From NCBI RefSeq assembly GCF_012271765.1, contig NZ_VRKO01000016.1, positions 372,001-436,000 on the forward strand: 64,000 bases of DNA, read 5' to 3'. Position numbers and translations under genes: made by a program. The notes below the pieces were generated by a model, which was not told where the DNA came from, did no database searches, and saw only the letters and a program-made list of their open reading frames with translations. Positions 3,384 through 49,865 of the stretch are shown one piece after another. The stretch comes from Erwinia rhapontici (GTDB lineage Bacteria > Pseudomonadota > Gammaproteobacteria > Enterobacterales > Enterobacteriaceae). Positions within the stretch are counted from its first letter, which is position 1. Each line of letters begins with the position of its first letter.

Positions 3384-4259
3384 GTGTCAGAACAATCGTT
3401 TGATCCCAACTCGCTGTTTAAGCAGCCTGCCATTTCTCTTCCCTGTCGTCTGTTTGAGACGATGAACCGCATGGATGAATACAGTGCCGATGATATGCGC
3501 TATGGCGACGTATCAGAATCTCGTCTGAAAACCGATTTCAAGCTAAGGGACGTTTCCGCAAGGGTAAATCCTTACACGGGTGAGAGGATTACCGCATCGC
3601 GTTTCACTCTCTTTAATCAGTGGGCATCACAACCGCTTTCAGTGAAAGAACGATCGGATATTTTATTTGATGAGTTTCGCGAGTTATCGCGTATATTCTC
3701 ATTTGTTGGCCCTTATCGCGATCTGATCGAGAAGTTAATTACCCATATGCAGACAGGTAATGGCAAGGTATTTAGTAGCCACTTGTTAGATAGTGCGTAT
3801 AAGGAGCAGATAGTAAGCGACTTATCAAGAGGTAGTTCTCTCCTGAAAATCAAGAAAACATTATCTGAGTCTATTAACTGGGAGATAGGACGTTACGATA
3901 GTAAAAACAAGTCTAAGTTTTCAGAAAATATTCTGGACTCAGTGCTTCCAAAATTCAATAAGTGGGTAGATCGAGTCAACTCACTCACGATCAGCGTTCA
4001 TGATGTGTGGGCAACTACGATTACGTTAAAATCACTTGTCATCAAAGGGGATAACTATTCTGCTACCATTCACTATCGAGCCCAGGATCATTTTGGGCTG
4101 GATTCCAAAGATGTTTTGAACCCGGTTTACAGGCAGTTTAGAATTTTTCGCATCTGGTTTTTACTGCAATATTATGAAAAGTATTCATTTAAGCCATTCA
4201 TTACGGAAATGAATGCCAGTATATCAGTAAAGGGAAATCGATATGACCAAGTCAAATAA
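3384..4259 (+). CDS. DUF3289-family protein of unknown function
   Basis: The product is 291 aa, starting at GTG 3384 with AAGGAG eight bases upstream. It shows the features I associate with DUF3289 (YPO3983-like): an N-terminal CRLFETMNRMDEYSADDMRYGD segment (residues ~25-46) and a C-terminal region rich in aromatic residues (HYRAQDHFGLDSKDVL, FRIFRIWFLLQYYE). No signal peptide or membrane helix is evident. Base composition is AT-richer than cbl and the MFS gene to the left, suggesting transfer. It overlaps the next gene by 17 bases and precedes three DUF943-type membrane proteins, so it probably works with them. A toxin/effector role with DUF943 as partner or immunity protein is only an inference from gene order. 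Confidence 0.75.
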   Translation: MSEQSFDPNSLFKQPAISLPCRLFETMNRMDEYSADDMRYGDVSESRLKTDFKLRDVSARVNPYTGERITASRFTLFNQWASQPLSVKERSDILFDEFRELSRIFSFVGPYRDLIEKLITHMQTGNGKVFSSHLLDSAYKEQIVSDLSRGSSLLKIKKTLSESINWEIGRYDSKNKSKFSENILDSVLPKFNKWVDRVNSLTISVHDVWATTITLKSLVIKGDNYSATIHYRAQDHFGLDSKDVLNPVYRQFRIFRIWFLLQYYEKYSFKPFITEMNASISVKGNRYDQVK

Positions 4260-4737
4260 AAATAATGAGATAAGATCGTTTAAAAAAACAATTTTATTTG
4301 TATTGATTTTTTTTGGTTTTATTTATTTTTTATATATTTCTCTGGTTCCCGTGAAAATAATCAGTTTTGTACGGGAGGGAAGCCGAATTTATCTATTTGT
4401 GGAAAATTTTCCAATAACTGATAAAGCGAGAATTGCATGGTGGCTGGATAATAAAGAGTTATTGAAAGAAAAATATAACTTGCCCTTTATTGGCAGTAAA
4501 TACCCGTGGACCGTGTTAGTTAGCGAAGTAGGTGATGGGTTTCAGTTTCTGCAGCACAGGGCCAGCGACAATGATTTACGCTGTTTTGACAGTCTAAAGC
4601 CTGGCGCCAATTGTGTCGAAAAAAAATGGCTGCTATGGATATCGCACTTCAATCAAGTCGACACCAGATACACTACGGATGATAGTGAATATATTCAGCG
4701 TGGTGAGAATGCTGAAATTAAGCGTGTTGCTGATTAA
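4243..4737 (+). CDS. DUF943-family inner-membrane-anchored protein, copy 1
   Basis: A 164-aa protein with a single N-terminal helix (residues ~14-33, IDE KTILFVLIFFGFIYFLYI-like) followed by a non-cytoplasmic domain containing VKIISFVREGSRIYLFVE, RIAWWLDNKE, FIGSKYPWTVL, DGFQFLQHRASDNDLRCF, and a conserved Cys pair (DLRCFDSLKPGANCVEKKW). These are the features I know from the enterobacterial DUF943 family, whose function is unknown. The gene overlaps the DUF3289 gene, implying translational coupling. It is the first of three tandem paralogues. Copies 1 and 3 are closer to each other than either is to copy 2. Confidence 0.8.
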   Translation: MTKSNKNNEIRSFKKTILFVLIFFGFIYFLYISLVPVKIISFVREGSRIYLFVENFPITDKARIAWWLDNKELLKEKYNLPFIGSKYPWTVLVSEVGDGFQFLQHRASDNDLRCFDSLKPGANCVEKKWLLWISHFNQVDTRYTTDDSEYIQRGENAEIKRVAD

Positions 4738-4803
4738 ATTTATCTTTGTTAGCCGACTGATAGCAAGGCTATGTCGGTCGGTTAAGAAATAACAGGAATC
4801 GCT

Positions 4804-5298
4804 ATGATTAATTCAAAAATAAAGACGAGTCGGCAACGTTTTGAAAAAGTCGTGCCGGCTACTGTCATTTTGGTCACCACTGTTATCATACTGTATTTTT
4901 TTCTCAGGCCAGTGAAAATTGTCAGTACTGTCCGCGAATGGAATGAGGGTTATTTTTTTGTGGCTAACTTCCCAAGTACCGCTAAAGCGAGAATTGCATG
5001 GTGGGAAGAGAATAAAGACGTGTTAAAGGAAAAGTACAACATGCCCTTTATCGGCGGTAAATATCCGTGGCAGGTGTTAATTGGTGAAGCCGGTGATGGG
5101 TTTCAGTTTCTGAGCAACAGGGCCAGCGACAACGACCTTATTTGTTTTGACAGCCTGAAACCTGCTGCTAATTGTATCGAGAAAAAATGGCTGTTATGGA
5201 TATCACACTATAACGAAACCGATACCAGCTACCATACGGATGACGAAAGATATATCCAGTGTGGCGTTAATGCTGAAATTAGACGTGTTAAGAAATAA
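4804..5298 (+). CDS. DUF943-family membrane-anchored protein, copy 2
   Basis: Again 164 aa with one N-terminal membrane helix (about residues 18-36) and the same domain: VKIVSTVREW, RIAWWEENKDVLKEKYN, FIGGKYPWQVL, DGFQFLSNRASDNDLICF, AANCIEKKWLLWISHYNETD. The second half is well conserved with copies 1 and 3, while the region after the helix (EWNEGYFFVANFPST) is the most divergent part. AGGA lies about 8 bases before the ATG. The spacer to copy 1 is 66 bp. Duplication with divergence in one patch is compatible with partner-specific recognition, but that is inference. Confidence 0.8.
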   Translation: MINSKIKTSRQRFEKVVPATVILVTTVIILYFFLRPVKIVSTVREWNEGYFFVANFPSTAKARIAWWEENKDVLKEKYNMPFIGGKYPWQVLIGEAGDGFQFLSNRASDNDLICFDSLKPAANCIEKKWLLWISHYNETDTSYHTDDERYIQCGVNAEIRRVKK

Positions 5299-5412
5299 AG
5301 CGGTCTTGTCTGGATAGCAGAAAGCAGCTATTCGGTTGATATTATAACTGGCCTGATATGACGATTTTCGTCGTTGGGCCATTTTCGTGCATCCTGTCAG
5401 AAGGAAACAGAT

Positions 5413-5907
5413 ATGGGCATAGTAGAGAAAATGGGGAAAAATCAGCGAGTAATAAAATCGGTTTTAGTGATCTCGTTGCTTATCATTTTCTTTCTCCTGT
5501 TGTTCCTGTTTCTCAGGCCAGTGAAAATTGTCAGTTTCGTACGGGAAGGAAGTCGTATTTACCTTTTTGTGGAGCATTTCCCCATGACGGATAAAGGTCG
5601 GATTGCATGGTGGTTGGATAATAAAGCGTTGTTGATAGAAAAGTATAACGTGCCATTTATTGGCGGTAAATACTACTGGTCGGTATTGATTGGTGAGGCA
5701 GGCGATGGTTTTCAGTTTCTGCAACACAGGGCCAGCGACAACGACCTTATTTGTTTTGATAGTCTTAAGCCTGGCGCTAATTGTGCCGAAAAAAAATGGC
5801 TGTTATGGATATCGCACTATAGCCAAACCGATATCAGTTACACGACGGATGATAGTGAATATATTCAGCGTGGCGATAACGCTAAAATTAAGCGTGTTGC
5901 TGATTAA
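5413..5907 (+). CDS. DUF943-family membrane-anchored protein, copy 3
   Basis: I place the start at ATG 5413, which has AAGGA upstream and gives 164 aa, the same length as copies 1 and 2. An in-frame ATG at 5374 would add 13 unsupported residues. There is one membrane helix (VISLLIIFFLLLFLFL, about residues 21-36), then VKIVSFVREGSRIYLFVE, RIAWWLDNKALLIEKYN, FIGGKYYWSVL, DGFQFLQHRASDNDLICF and the conserved Cys pair. Function is unknown. It closes the DUF3289/DUF943 island; beyond it the sequence changes abruptly to GC-rich stem-loop DNA. Confidence 0.8.
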   Translation: MGIVEKMGKNQRVIKSVLVISLLIIFFLLLFLFLRPVKIVSFVREGSRIYLFVEHFPMTDKGRIAWWLDNKALLIEKYNVPFIGGKYYWSVLIGEAGDGFQFLQHRASDNDLICFDSLKPGANCAEKKWLLWISHYSQTDISYTTDDSEYIQRGDNAKIKRVAD

Positions 5908-37774: not shown

Positions 37775-39025
37775 ATGGAAAGCAAAGTAGTTGTTCCGGC
37801 GGAAGGTCAGAAAATCACCCTGGATCAGGGAAAACTCAACGTACCTAACAATCCAATCATCCCGTTCATCGAAGGTGATGGCATTGGCGTTGACGTGTCT
37901 CCAGTGATGATCAAAGTTGTTGATGCCGCTGTGCAGAAAGCTTACAACGGTGAGCGTAAAATTTCCTGGATGGAAATTTACACCGGTGAGAAATCGGTAG
38001 AGCTTTACGGCCAGGATGTCTGGTTACCAGAAGAAACCCTCGACCTGATTAAAGAATATCGCGTTGCCATCAAAGGCCCACTGACCACCCCGGTCGGCGG
38101 CGGTATTCGTTCCCTGAACGTTGCCCTGCGTCAGCAGCTTGATCTGTACATCTGCCTGCGTCCTGTCCGTTACTACACCGGCACACCAAGCCCGGTGAAA
38201 CGCCCGGAAGACACCGATATGGTGATTTTCCGTGAGAACTCCGAAGATATCTATGCGGGTATCGAGTGGAAAGCGGGTACGCCGGAAGCAGATAAAGTCA
38301 TCAAGTTCCTGCGTGATGAAATGGGCGTGAAGAAAATTCGCTTCCCTGAGCAGTGCGGTATCGGCGTTAAGCCATGTTCAGAAGCGGGCACCCAGCGTCT
38401 GGTGCGTGCAGCCATCGAATACGCAATCACTAACGACCGTGATTCTGTAACGCTGGTTCACAAAGGCAACATCATGAAATTCACCGAAGGCGCTTTCAAA
38501 GACTGGGGTTACCAGTTGGCGAAAGAAGAATTCGGCGGTGAGCTGATCGATGGTGGTCCGTGGATGACGGTGAAGAACCCGAACACCGGCAAAGAGATCG
38601 TCATTAAAGACGTGATCGCCGATGCCTTCCTGCAGCAGATCCTGCTGCGTCCGGCTGAGTATGACGTAATTGCCTGTATGAACCTGAACGGTGACTACAT
38701 CTCTGACGCCCTGGCGGCGCAGGTGGGCGGTATCGGTATTGCTCCGGGTGCTAACATCGGTGACGAATGTGCACTGTTTGAAGCCACCCACGGTACTGCA
38801 CCTAAGTATGCTGGCCAGGATAAAGTGAACCCAGGTTCTATCATCCTGTCTGCAGAAATGATGCTGCGTCATATGGAATGGTTCGAAGCCGCTGACCTGA
38901 TTGTTAAAGGCATGGAAGGCGCAATCGCTGCCAAAACCGTGACCTATGACTTCGAACGTCAGATGGACGGCGCTAAGTTGCTGAAAGCGTCAGAGTTTGG
39001 CGACGCGATGATTAAACACATGTAA
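37775..39025 (+). CDS. icd: NADP-dependent isocitrate dehydrogenase
   Basis: Start at 37775 ([20 protein letters not shown]) with AAGGAGAGG upstream gives 416 aa, as in E. coli. S113 in [13 protein letters not shown] is the AceK phosphorylation site, with substrate Arg residues in LRPVRYYTG. The TCA-cycle enzyme oxidises isocitrate to 2-oxoglutarate. The gene is intact to its normal C-terminus ([11 protein letters not shown]) and has its own terminator. The 3' end of icd is the attachment site of e14/phage 21 in E. coli, and a prophage with e14-like order begins downstream here, so the last codons may have been supplied by the phage. Confidence 0.96.
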
Positions 39026-39047
39026 TCAGCTTGATGATGCTGTGCTG

Positions 39048-39074
39048 ACGGGAACCTGATGGTTCCCGTTTTTT
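39048..39074 (+). terminator. icd terminator
   Basis: A perfect 9-bp stem ACGGGAACC / GGTTCCCGT (39048-39056, 39061-39069) with loop TGAT, followed by a T tract. Confidence 0.9.
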
Positions 39075-39188
39075 ATTATTAGCATTCTAACGGTTATCAA
39101 AATATTATCAAAATAATTTATCAAAACGTAAACCTACTGATAGAATGTTAAATACAAATATTGAACTTGGGATTGATGGAACCTCCAT

Positions 39189-40271
39189 ATGCCTCACAAC
39201 TTACTCATTGAAAGTGTTAATTTAGACTCAAAGTGCTGGGTTGTTCGTTCTGGTGTTCGTTATAGATATATATCGCAATTCTTCGATGGTGATTTTATCG
39301 CAACTGGACACCTTGATGATTATGAATTAGAACCCGGGGTGTTTGATGAGGAATTAAGCCATGCTAATTTTTCTCATTTTTTTCCTGAAATAGATGGTGC
39401 AATAACGAGAAATATAAAAACCCAAATTGAAAATTTCGTACTTGATATGAGTGTCGGGGATGTCGTTTTTACGATGGATTCAATGAATGTTATCCCTGGT
39501 GTTATTAAGTCAGGTCCTTTTATTAGTTTGGATGCAATTTCTCAGAACGAAGGTTTTTATGTTCGTAGAAGTGTAGAATGGGGGGAGCCTATTTCTAGAC
39601 GGTCTATACCTATAACTATTCAAAGATGTTTTAATGCTTATCAAGCAATTTTTTCGCTAGGTGACAGTTCAAAAGAAATATTCCATTGGTTGATGGCATT
39701 TTTTATTTCGGATAATAGTTATTACGGTAGTTTACGAGTTGAGCAGCCGAATGCTATAAAACACCATACCTTAAAGCAATTAAATGAACTAATCGATCGT
39801 ATACAAGTACTTTCATTGTTAATTGGCGAGCATTTAGATAATAACATTCAGGAAGACTTTGTTTTAACCTTCGAAGACATTCGAGATGGAATGGAACGAT
39901 TTTCTGAGTCAGGTGAGCTTAATCTCACAGTTCAGCAAATGTTGATGTCGCCAGGCGATCTTTGGTTAAAATTCACAAGTACGTCTAACATTGCTGGTAC
40001 TGCCTTCCTTTGTGCACTTTTATCGTTTTCTTCACCGGCTTCGTCTTTAACATTTGTAAACAATGACTTTAATGGTAAAATTGATCAGATTACACAAATG
40101 ATCAACACAAGCCGTGATGTCATTTATCAAGATATAAATGTTGAGGCAGTTAAAAGACAGTTAATCTTGGAGGCTGCTGACCAAAACGTTGAGTTTGTGA
40201 CGTCTGAGCCAACTAAGACTCAAGACGATGATTTCCCAGAGGATGGTGACCCAAGGCATGTTGGGGGATAA
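39189..40271 (+). CDS. Unknown prophage cargo protein with N-terminal PUA/EVE-like sensor-type domain
   Basis: An AT-rich gene encoding 360 aa. The N-terminal ~150 residues follow the pattern of the PUA/EVE-like domain found at the front of Mrr-type and other restriction proteins: CWVVRSGVRYRYISQFF, DFIATGHLDD, the helix ITRNIKTQIENFVLDM, then VGDVVFTMDSMNVIPGVIKSG and RRSVEWG. The rest is helical and unrecognised, with a hydrophobic stretch near 262-285 (NIAGTAFLCALLSFSSPASS) and an acidic tail. No nuclease or HExxH protease motif is visible. It sits between icd and int, where e14 carries the exclusion gene lit, and is followed after two bases by a membrane protein gene. A defence role is inferred. 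Confidence 0.7.
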   Translation: MPHNLLIESVNLDSKCWVVRSGVRYRYISQFFDGDFIATGHLDDYELEPGVFDEELSHANFSHFFPEIDGAITRNIKTQIENFVLDMSVGDVVFTMDSMNVIPGVIKSGPFISLDAISQNEGFYVRRSVEWGEPISRRSIPITIQRCFNAYQAIFSLGDSSKEIFHWLMAFFISDNSYYGSLRVEQPNAIKHHTLKQLNELIDRIQVLSLLIGEHLDNNIQEDFVLTFEDIRDGMERFSESGELNLTVQQMLMSPGDLWLKFTSTSNIAGTAFLCALLSFSSPASSLTFVNNDFNGKIDQITQMINTSRDVIYQDINVEAVKRQLILEAADQNVEFVTSEPTKTQDDDFPEDGDPRHVGG

Positions 40272-40273
40272 TT

Positions 40274-40918
40274 ATGATTATTGTGGGATGGGTATTATTA
40301 GCACTGCTAATTATTGTTCTTTTTTGGCAAGCTAAGAATATATGGAGGAACCATAATAACTTCAACAATATTTCTATATCTTTATGCGCAATCCTGACAT
40401 TGGCTTGGGGAGCATATACTTTTGATGCTTTGAACCAGAAAGACAAAGCCAATGCTGAATATGCAGAGCTTCAGCAGAAAATAAGAAATACTGAATCAAC
40501 ATTTTTTAATATTGATGCATCCATCACTAAGTCTTCTGATGGATATTATATCACTCCAGTTATAAGCATAAAAAATAGTGGCTCGGAACCAATATTTATA
40601 AAGTTAAGGGGCGACTCCGTATCTATAGATGCTATTGAGGTGCGTGGTGATAAGGTTAAATCAATAAAGACATATACTCCAAATATATATGAAGAAATCT
40701 CATCGAGTGCAAAAGGTAAAAATATACCCATCTATGATTGGAAAATACCAATTTCAGCAGAGCGGAAACTCAACTACGTAGCAAAGGTTGATTCGCCGGG
40801 TATGTATTTCATTACTTTTTCAGCAAGGGAGGCTGATAAGGATTTTAATGAAAAAAATAATAATGTAAACGGAAAGCCTATGATTTGGTTCGTTTCTAAA
40901 TATGTTTATGTTGAATGA
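40274..40918 (+). CDS. Unknown membrane protein with two N-terminal helices, partner of the preceding gene
   Basis: A 214-aa protein. Two predicted membrane helices (residues ~2-19, IIVGWVLLALLIIVLFW, and ~33-48, ISISLCAILTLAWGAY) are followed by a short coiled-coil-like segment (QKDKANAEYAELQQKIRN) and a beta-rich domain (FFNIDASITKSSDGYYITPVISIKN onwards). The helix arrangement would place both the N-terminus and the C-terminal domain on the same side of the membrane. The gene starts two bases after the preceding stop with GGGGG as ribosome site, so the pair form one operon. AT-rich like its partner. Function unknown; a membrane effector paired with a sensor is a reasonable guess. Confidence 0.72.
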   Translation: MIIVGWVLLALLIIVLFWQAKNIWRNHNNFNNISISLCAILTLAWGAYTFDALNQKDKANAEYAELQQKIRNTESTFFNIDASITKSSDGYYITPVISIKNSGSEPIFIKLRGDSVSIDAIEVRGDKVKSIKTYTPNIYEEISSSAKGKNIPIYDWKIPISAERKLNYVAKVDSPGMYFITFSAREADKDFNEKNNNVNGKPMIWFVSKYVYVE

Positions 40919-40972: not shown

Positions 40973-42097
40973 TTAAAGTCCAACCATGGTCCATCCTTTT
41001 CCTCGATCGTCGTGATATTTCGCTGTCTGATGGGCTGATTTATGCCCCAACAGTTTTTGGGTGTTGATACCCTCAATTTTATAAAGACGTTCCGCCAGAG
41101 AGCGCTGTTCGTGAAATGTTGCAGGTGTGCCTTCTTTCCAGTCAATCGCTGCTTTGTCTCTCGCTTTGCTGAAGTTCATCGTCAGGGTATTGGACTTAAC
41201 CTGAGCGCCACGTTCCGCCTGAGACGTAGCCCTGAAAAAGTGAATCAAGTAAGGACTCACCACATAATCGCGACAGCGTGCCACGACATCTCGGAGGCTC
41301 CAGTCTATTGCATTCAGGCGAAGCGAGAGAGGAATGGCTATCTTGCTCCCGGTTTTTTCCTGAATTACATGTAGGTGATCGTCCCAGATATCACTGAACT
41401 TCATATTTGAGATGTCACCCAGTCGCTGGCCAGTAACGAGCGCCAGAAGCATCGCGTTACCCAAATACTGATGGTGGGTATCTGCAATAGTGAAAATTTT
41501 CTGCCACTCTTCCAGGTTTAGACGCTGCCGGGTAATCCGGATCCTGGGCTGCTTGGTAGCCAATGCAGGGTTGTAACCAGGCGGAACTTCGCCATAGTGC
41601 TGCGCTTCTTTAAAGACATCGATTAACACCGAACGGATCACCTGCGCCATTCGAGGCTGCCCCTCTGAAATGTACCCTTCAAGAATCTCCGCAATATCAC
41701 GAACATCCACTAATGAAATAAGCTTCATACCAACCCGTTCCCGAAGCAGGGCGACAGGCTTGACTTTTTGTTTATGGGTATTTGGTCTTATCTCTCCATT
41801 GGTCAATCTTTCATCCTGAATTTTCCAGTAACGATCCAGCCAGGTCGCGGTAGAAATTGCTTTCCCCTTACTGGTAGCAATCCTGTCGCTGAGCGTCAGT
41901 ATCTGCCTCGAACGTTGTTCCGCCATACGTGCGTTGGCTTCGGTTGCTATAGCGACAGCTTCTGCTTCATTCGTTCCAAGACTGTGAAATTTACCAGTGG
42001 CAGGATGTTTGTAGCGCCAGTAGATTTTATTCACTTTCCTGTTATAAAGCGCATATAAATTTGGAATCTGGATATTATTTTTACGTGGTCTCGCCAT
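40973..42097 (-). CDS. int: Phage integrase, tyrosine recombinase (lambda Int type)
   Basis: A 374-aa protein resembling lambda Int along its length: an N-terminal arm-binding domain (PNLYALYNRKVNKIYWRYKHPATGKFHSLG), a core-binding domain (WLDRYWKIQDERL, IRSVLIDVFKEAQHYGEVPPG), and a catalytic domain with Arg in VTGQRLGDI, Lys in IQEKTGSKIAIPL, H-x-x-R in FHEQRSLAERLY, His in LLGHKSAHQTA and the nucleophile Tyr in KYHDDRGKGW. It recombines attP with the host site, here probably at icd. It overlaps xis by 17 bases or more, as in lambda. Confidence 0.94.
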   Translation of the reverse strand: MARPRKNNIQIPNLYALYNRKVNKIYWRYKHPATGKFHSLGTNEAEAVAIATEANARMAEQRSRQILTLSDRIATSKGKAISTATWLDRYWKIQDERLTNGEIRPNTHKQKVKPVALLRERVGMKLISLVDVRDIAEILEGYISEGQPRMAQVIRSVLIDVFKEAQHYGEVPPGYNPALATKQPRIRITRQRLNLEEWQKIFTIADTHHQYLGNAMLLALVTGQRLGDISNMKFSDIWDDHLHVIQEKTGSKIAIPLSLRLNAIDWSLRDVVARCRDYVVSPYLIHFFRATSQAERGAQVKSNTLTMNFSKARDKAAIDWKEGTPATFHEQRSLAERLYKIEGINTQKLLGHKSAHQTAKYHDDRGKGWTMVGL

Positions 42098-48665: not shown

Positions 48666-48834
48666 AGACAGCCAAAACCTCAATCGCAAATATCGCGACC
48701 CACGTGGCGTTCTCGTCAAAGTCATTCGTTGGGACAAAGTTAATCAGCAGGTCATCTTCCTGCGCGAAGGATATCCGCACGAGTGCATGCAGCCGCTTGA
48801 GCGCTTCGTTAAGAAATTCACGAGGGTTCTATGA
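48658..48834 (+). CDS. DUF4222-like small phage protein (58 aa)
   Basis: The likely start is GTG 48658 (or GTG 48652), after GCTGGGGG, overlapping the previous stop. The product VHEDSQNLNRKYRDPRGVLV...VIFLREGYPHECMQPLERF...FTRV has the R-x-GY-x-EC-x-QP-x-x-x-F pattern I associate with DUF4222 phage proteins. Unknown function. Its stop overlaps the replication gene by four bases. Confidence 0.65.
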   Translation: MHEDSQNLNRKYRDPRGVLVKVIRWDKVNQQVIFLREGYPHECMQPLERFVKKFTRVL

Positions 48835-49865
48835 GCGTTAAGTTATCCGCATACGTCTGGGATGGCTGCGCACTGTCTGGCATGAAGCTGACAGAGGTGG
48901 TCATCATGGCTCGTCTTGCTGACTGGTGTAACGACGAGGGTGTTTGCTGGCCTAGCGTAGGGACTATTGCCCGTCAGATTGGCGCGGGTGAAAGCACTGT
49001 CCGTACTGCTATTGGCAAGCTTCAGAAAGAGGGCTGGTTAAGCCGCCGTCAGCGCCGCCAGGGGAACCGTAACGCATCCAATGTTTATCATCTGAACGTG
49101 GCAAAACTGCGTGAAGCGGCCAACAAAGTTCATACGCCAGAATCTGACACATCAAAATCTGATGCATCAAAATCTGACGCGTCGAAATCTGAGGCCTCAA
49201 ATTCTGACCCGTCGAATAACTGCCGCGAAACAGGTTTTCACCCGTCAGCATCTGGGGGCGATCCGTTAGTAAATTCAAAACAAGAACCATCAGATAAAAA
49301 CACTTCTGTCCAACCGCCTTCAGCGGCAGGACTGGATGACAAAATTTCTGAAGAAATCCACGTAACAGACCAGGCGATTCTTGTGCTGAAGCATCTGAAC
49401 CTGATGACCGGTGCAAAATACACAACGGCCAAAGCCACTCTGGAGAACATCAGGGCGCGTCTGGTCGATGGTCACACAGTCGACGAGCTGAAAACTGTTG
49501 TTGAGTACATGTCCGACCGCTGGCTGGGAACTGAGTGGTCAAAGCACCTGACCCCGCCGACGATATTTCATCCGGCTAAATTCCCGGCGAACCTCCTTGG
49601 AGCGCAGGCATGGGAGAAATCAGGACGTGCAGCAGCGGCACAACGAGCGGAGCCAGTGAACACCGCTGAACGTGACGATGCCTTCAAGCGCCTGGTGGCA
49701 AACCCTGGCAAACCCCGTAACCGTATCGAGGAACTGGCTAAACGCGCAGCTGGCAAGGCTGGCCTTGGCCGGATGAACGAATCGATCGCTCGTAACTCGT
49801 GGAAAAGCATCTGGACAGAAGCGGTGAAGAACGCGGCAGAAGAAAACCAGCAGGAGTCAGCATGA
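48831..49865 (+). CDS. Phage replication initiator-type protein (O-like, HTH plus conserved phage C-terminal domain)
   Basis: A 344-aa protein. The N-terminal winged helix (KLTEVVIMARLADWCNDEGV, CWPSVGTIARQIGAGESTVRTAIGKLQKEGWL, ~residues 20-70) is typical of phage replication proteins. A low-complexity linker of SDASK-like repeats (~104-128) is encoded by DNA iterons. The C-terminal domain (TGAKYTTAKATLENIRARLV, EWSKHLTPPTIFHPAKFPANL) is the conserved phage C-terminal replisome module. It probably binds the origin inside its own gene, as lambda O does, and loads the host helicase, since no phage helicase gene follows. Confidence 0.82.
   Translation: MSVKLSAYVWDGCALSGMKLTEVVIMARLADWCNDEGVCWPSVGTIARQIGAGESTVRTAIGKLQKEGWLSRRQRRQGNRNASNVYHLNVAKLREAANKVHTPESDTSKSDASKSDASKSEASNSDPSNNCRETGFHPSASGGDPLVNSKQEPSDKNTSVQPPSAAGLDDKISEEIHVTDQAILVLKHLNLMTGAKYTTAKATLENIRARLVDGHTVDELKTVVEYMSDRWLGTEWSKHLTPPTIFHPAKFPANLLGAQAWEKSGRAAAAQRAEPVNTAERDDAFKRLVANPGKPRNRIEELAKRAAGKAGLGRMNESIARNSWKSIWTEAVKNAAEENQQESA
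49141..49215 (+). repeat. Five 15-bp iterons inside the replication gene (predicted origin)
   Basis: Five contiguous 15-bp units begin at 49141, 49156, 49171, 49186 and 49201 with the pattern AATCTGA-N3-TC(A/G)A. Three have perfect palindromic centres that differ from one another: TGATGCATCA, GACGCGTC and TGAGGCCTCA. They encode SD(T/A/E/P)SK-like repeats. Placement within the initiator gene mirrors the lambda origin. Confidence 0.8.

Follow-up and report, generated by a model that had tools for sequence, protein, structure and literature searches.

What do two adjoining AT-rich genes do at the left edge of a prophage in Erwinia rhapontici? The genes, given the working labels A and B, lie between icd and the prophage integrase gene int in a 64,000-nucleotide stretch of contig NZ_VRKO01000016.1 (positions 372,001 to 436,000, forward strand; hereafter, the window), and their coordinates are listed in Table 1. 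We see about an even chance that they form a module for superinfection exclusion (anti-phage defence), borne by temperate phages as cargo, in which A would sense nucleic acid and B would be a membrane effector. Homologous loci collected for comparison are numbered with the prefix L, and G000 is the window's own genome.

As described in the initial annotation, two open reading frames (ORFs) separated by 2 bp are present between icd and int. Their AT-richness was also noted there, and is evident from guanine-plus-cytosine contents of 0.37 for A and 0.34 for B, versus 0.52 in icd, 0.48 in int, and 0.54 across the whole window. The pair is likewise AT-rich against its surroundings in all nine other loci measured. 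A sequence 97% identical to the 3' end of icd is repeated ~38.6 kb downstream (G000 C4:449428-449591), which implies that A-B sits just inside attL of an icd-integrated prophage, as the cargo nearest its icd end. This ~38.6-kb prophage, with A-B at its left edge, extends beyond the end of the window. The integrase to the right of B matches Arm-DNA-bind_1 (E value 4.7e-31) and Phage_integrase (E value 4e-16) in Pfam. In the e14 prophage of Escherichia coli K-12, the icd-integrase slot is occupied by ymfD, ymfE, and the phage-exclusion gene lit, in agreement with the comparison to e14 drawn earlier.

B directly follows A in 19 of 20 loci, a count that holds duplicates (the window and L005; L006 and L007; L010 and L011; L014, L016, and L017, with equal B scores; and four E. 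coli loci). The remaining locus, L009, stops at the stop codon of A, as does L036, a thirteenth viral locus with A. A search begun from B gave 17 viral loci, 11 of which are contigs already known to contain A. In the other six (L021-L025 and L028, all IMG/VR provirus contigs), the contig starts at B, and an integrase-like frame, read by eye, lies convergently behind it. Provirus calling probably removed A at these six loci, and cargo at contig edges may be under-counted.

Both A and B behave as real genes and are under purifying selection. Each protein is 83% identical to its E. coli homologue, and the ratios of nonsynonymous to synonymous substitution rates (dN/dS) in these comparisons are 0.074 for A (dS 1.33) and 0.105 for B (dS 0.91). 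Across ten loci, pairwise distances for A and B are correlated (r = 0.957, with none of 5000 permutations as high), although such a correlation would also arise from joint inheritance alone. The Erwinia genome has a single copy of each gene. A is found in one of 36 other genomes of the genus, again with B behind it, and in none of 391 other genomes sampled from the family. Megablast detects the pair in 6 of 5426 E. coli genomes; four of the six were fetched, and in all four the pair resides in the icd-intE slot. This rare and patchy distribution fits mobile cargo. No matches were found for A of the window or of L014 in phages and plasmids, for B of the window in phages, for A alone in genome contigs, or, by megablast in E. 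coli, for the L018 pair and the window integrase. Two weak matches, L039 (a frame with a stop) and L047, lie outside the analysis, as do the neighbours of L016, L017, and L019.

Protein A begins with a domain (about residues 13-161, the first ~160) that is EVE/PUA-like and akin to the domain preceding Mrr-type nucleases. A domain of this type, as in Mrr-like proteins, had been suggested by the initial annotation, and the kinship is borne out by comparison with a hidden Markov model (HMM) of the EVE-like N-terminal domain of Mrr-type enzymes. That model comprises four proteins found through A's own profile, kept out of six Mrr-type candidates (L045, L046, and L053-L056); its match to A has an E value of 2.9e-15, versus 0.97 for the best of 2000 shuffles, and hhalign gives 98.7% for the two domains. 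Curated EVE models in Pfam do not match A, and an EVE/PUA-like fold is what a fold test predicts for the domain. Tryptophans W17 and W131 of A are invariant.

The second domain of A (about residues 165-345) is predicted to be alpha/beta, with a conserved S-P-G-D-x-W hairpin and one hydrophobic helix, and is followed by an acidic C-terminal tail containing an F-P-x-D-G motif. The second half had been described as a helical region with a hydrophobic patch. The hydrophobic stretch is indeed present, but the region is not predicted to be purely helical. In 17 of 18 aligned members, the most hydrophobic 19-residue stretch falls in this domain (means of 1.12-2.16), and in the exception, from L. brevis, the second-domain stretch ranks second (1.19); the second-domain alignment with Gram-positive homologues is tentative. 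In the predicted model, the hydrophobic helix sits inside the folded domain. Pfam searches of A yield no match up to an E value of 10, and hence no Mrr_cat, HNH, or AAA domain. Among 11 relatives, the conserved residues of the second domain, which include H166, R183, and D257, form no nuclease-type pattern. A fold search assigned A to no metabolic family. Judged from its sequence, A is a protein in which the nuclease has been replaced by another alpha/beta domain behind the EVE-like domain.

Protein B is predicted to have two hydrophobic helices that lead through a helical stalk to an all-beta Ig-like sandwich at residues 76-213 (predicted local distance difference test score 79.5, predicted template modelling score 0.55). 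Two membrane helices and a beta-rich domain had been anticipated for B, and two hydrophobic peaks are found in 14 of 16 B members at the threshold used. In those 14, the charge of the loop between the helices is zero or positive, and that of the stretch after helix 2 is zero or negative. These charges mildly favour a periplasmic sandwich, although the argument is weak. The sandwich resembles many unrelated Ig-like proteins in a structure search, and therefore tells nothing of function. The libraries searched give no match to B above curated cut-offs, PADLOC matches neither B nor the two B relatives scanned, and a B profile has no match in the PDB.

Most relatives of the pair were seen in phage or defence-type surroundings, though a collection limited to viral contigs supplied 28 of the loci, so that the neighbourhood tally is a biased census. 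In L014, A-B is flanked by a P2 gpA replication gene and by the portal gene, each identified with Pfam, and the same position is occupied in L013, L015, and L018, as read by eye from ORF lists. The P2 gpA-gpQ interval is a hotspot in which defence systems have been tested, according to two reports (PMC9122126, PMC9519451). A type II-A retron pair ends 216 bp ahead of A in Pseudomonas grimontii (L008), where a HEC-07 match occurs further along. A GmrSD/Orf5 protein is encoded 1.7 kb from A-B in L013, and an RT-Toprim retron 4.4 kb from it in L020. In L010 and L012, the pair appears, by eye, amid tail genes of other prophages. A separate observation concerns L018:10301-11878, which encodes a 525-amino acid protein beside A-B in the P2-type hotspot. 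The protein has no match in Pfam (E value up to 0.01) or PADLOC (E value up to 0.001), and may be a further cargo gene.

Distant homologues of A are found in other settings, and the B profile has no match in three loci with such homologues. In L043/L048, a gene for a Tle1-like phospholipase lies 69 bp behind the A homologue, with an integrase about 4 kb away. In L038/L052, the distant A is near a PLD-family gene (weak DrmC/ZacB matches), a TOTE primase-helicase, and an integrase. In L044/L049, it lies behind ribonucleotide-reductase-like genes and ahead of a gene for a small protein with one hydrophobic stretch (read by eye), beyond which is a Schlafen-type helicase; no integrase was seen there. 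In L048:4270-7592, the A homologue and the phospholipase-domain protein are followed by a 246-amino acid protein with no Pfam match, and the arrangement might represent a second type of partner.

A tblastn search with the L043 protein detects 14 phage records and one plasmid; four of the 14 cover 80% of the query, and ten only 46-58%. The plasmid and seven of the phage records (six from phages or satellites and one Salmonella contig) were fetched. The homologue on the Salmonella contig is annotated as an Mrr-like restriction enzyme. In all seven of the others (L070-L076, from phages of Staphylococcus, Streptococcus, and Lactobacillus, a Streptococcus satellite, and a Levilactobacillus plasmid), an A homologue of 356-395 amino acids lies between a repressor or helix-turn-helix-type gene and an integrase gene. 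Annotated genes intervene on the repressor side (eight in phage G2-Guo, zero to two in the rest) and on the integrase side (zero to two).

The icd-int slot was also examined in E. coli strains. K-12-like intE genes occur in 503 E. coli records, 40 of which were listed; leaving aside K-12-type and laboratory strains and near duplicates, nine records that differ from K-12 were fetched (L058-L066). Their slots contain a KwaB-like piece with three other genes; AAA and HNH proteins; macro and DarT; DUF262 with an unnamed gene; AAA and Dam; a TPR protein; unnamed proteins with an integrase remnant (two records); and AAA with an unnamed gene. A PADLOC scan covered 10 proteins, which are part of the gene content, from eight of the records. 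It gives clear matches to KwaB, PtuA and PDC-M01, DarT, and NsnA (DUF262), and weaker ones of two ATPases to several defence ATPase models and, in part, of the TPR protein. Two proteins scanned, one each in L058 and L064, have no PADLOC match. In this small sample of nine strains, the slot behaves as a defence-rich cargo position. In the main text of a survey of E. coli defence islands, the terms icd, isocitrate, and e14 are absent (PMC10121019). The slot looks productive for finding further systems, and a full census is deserved. The KwaB-like piece noted above (L058:7095-7502) is a 135-amino acid protein that corresponds only to the C-terminal part of KwaB (profile positions 210-337 of 339, E value 2e-49), and is possibly a Kiwa-like remnant.

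Known systems resemble A-B only in part. The PADLOC model PDC-S02, whose "S" we take to mark a single-gene candidate and hence one that has no B, matches A with an E value of 3.7e-13, and its best stretch is profile positions 3-185 of 324, so that A falls partly under this candidate through its N-terminal half. PDC-S02 models match 11 of 11 members (A and ten relatives) and all five of the Gram-positive phage, satellite, or plasmid homologues scanned from the seven fetched, but match domains of McrB-like proteins as well. In Mrr-type enzymes, the N-terminal domain is homologous over residues 13-161 of A, whereas A has its alpha/beta domain and a membrane partner in place of Mrr_cat. EVE-HNH enzymes such as VcaM4I and McrB proteins with an EVE-type N-terminal domain differ in having the HNH or AAA domain that Pfam does not detect in A. 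Kiwa, like A-B, has two genes, encoding an inner-membrane protein (KwaA) and a partner predicted to have a nucleic-acid domain (KwaB), but KwaA has four helices, in contrast to two in B, and neither A nor B matches KwaA or KwaB (DUF4868) models at E values up to 10. The lit gene of e14 occupies the same icd-integrase slot, but Lit is a zinc-type protease with an HExxH motif, which is absent from the sequence of A.

We propose that A is a soluble sensor whose EVE/PUA-like domain would dock onto incoming phage nucleic acid, probably by recognising a base that is modified or unusual in some other way. The second domain, presumed non-enzymatic, and the acidic tail would then relay a signal to B, an inner-membrane partner that would execute the response, most likely by a membrane disturbance that stops the infected cell. 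We infer this order, from A to B, because no nuclease domain was found in A, a membrane protein is closely linked to it, and a phospholipase gene lies behind one distant A. Two observations count against a sensor A coupled to an effector B. Distant A homologues occur with no evident B, among them those of L070-L076, where no gene annotated like B is present (by annotation only, as the B profile was not run there), and the hint of a periplasmic sandwich also fits the reverse order. In that reverse, Kiwa-like order, which we consider rather unlikely, B would sense infection at the envelope through its periplasmic Ig-like domain and would anchor A, which would bind entering phage DNA and block its use with no cutting. 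Kiwa has the same combination of a membrane protein and a DNA-domain protein, and, according to one report, KwaA senses at the membrane and KwaB binds DNA but does not cleave it (PMC12904381). The helix-flank charges of B, the lack of a recognisable nuclease family or nuclease-type pattern in the second domain of A, and the KwaB piece in the slot of another strain also favour this order. However, the Kiwa models do not match either protein, the charges are a weak guide, and the phospholipase behind a distant A suggests that the partner is the effector.

The remaining explanations dispense either with B or with defence. It is improbable that the pair is lysogenic cargo for prophage regulation, plasmid exclusion, or host fitness. 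A functional test of the pair was not found in the literature searched, and phage hotspots also hold non-defence genes, such as the partition systems noted in one report (PMC9122126). Against this, A-B turns up repeatedly in prophage slots that are unrelated to one another, and also close to retrons and GmrSD, and the domain of A is akin to modification-dependent restriction. Still less credible is that A excludes phages on its own, as a sensor with a membrane-active hydrophobic helix in its second domain, while B has an accessory, anchoring, or immunity-like regulatory role. The distant homologues that lie between a repressor-type gene and an integrase in Gram-positive phages with no evident B would fit such a role, as would the position of the top hydrophobic stretch in 17 of 18 members. 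But in the enterobacterial and Pseudomonas branch, A is closely paired and co-diverges with B, and the helix belongs to a folded domain in the model.

The coupling of a sensor A to an effector B can be extended to a broader, more tentative idea, which we find somewhat doubtful. A might belong to a nuclease-free offshoot of modification-dependent restriction sensors, in which an EVE-like reader is wired to the membrane, and which forms a widespread phage-borne family and a modular "base reader to membrane" class of immunity. In Enterobacteria and Pseudomonas, its output would be a dedicated Ig-domain protein with two helices; elsewhere, the output may be a Tle1-like phospholipase or may come from A by itself. 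DNA modification is a means by which phages evade restriction, and the known sensors of these marks that are mentioned here have nucleases as their output. Pairing a reader domain with a membrane protein would give the same cue another output, which prophages would carry to exclude rivals. The pair is compact, is found repeatedly across several types of phage, and lends itself to direct testing in laboratory E. coli.

The domain of A, A alone as a PADLOC candidate, and the slot logic from P2 are already known. The initial annotation had considered the pair a candidate new system, and this is only partly upheld, since A alone matches the existing PDC-S02, whereas its pairing with B was not found described. 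The literature searched, which stopped short of supplements and of full texts naming PDC-S02, contains neither a description of the pair nor a plating assay of it. A term search of the DefensePredictor main text (PMC13092281) did not find the pair, and the accessible portions of two other papers (PMC12724215, PMC11514479) contain nothing bearing on it.

Signals for expression of the pair are included in Table 1. Four terminator-like sites are found in the A-B region, versus 1.0 expected, and ten promoter-like sites versus 8.2 by chance, so that the latter count is not above chance.

Table 1. Features at the icd end of the prophage, in window coordinates
Feature	Coordinates	Strand	Remarks
icd	37775..39025	+	Host gene; prophage attaches at its 3' end (attL side)
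Intrinsic terminator-like hairpin	39047..39070	+	Behind icd, sets icd apart from A; consensus match only
Possible A-B promoter, TTATCA-17-TAGAAT, TG ahead of second hexamer	39118..39146	+	Weak
Gene A, 360 amino acids	39189..40271	+	EVE/PUA-like domain, predicted alpha/beta domain, acidic tail
Gene B, 214 amino acids	40274..40918	+	Predicted two membrane helices, helical stalk, Ig-like beta sandwich
Prophage integrase, e14/lambda type	40973..42097	-	Convergent with B; Pfam

Two further features of the window were observed. An AT-rich block at 3384-5907 encodes a 291-amino acid protein, then three tandem, similar proteins of 164-177 amino acids with an N-terminal hydrophobic stretch, and looks like a candidate effector with an array of immunity-like genes. 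At 49141-49216, inside the prophage gene at 48831-49865, a 15-bp tandem repeat is present in 4.5 copies and encodes repeats of the S-K-S-D/E-A type.
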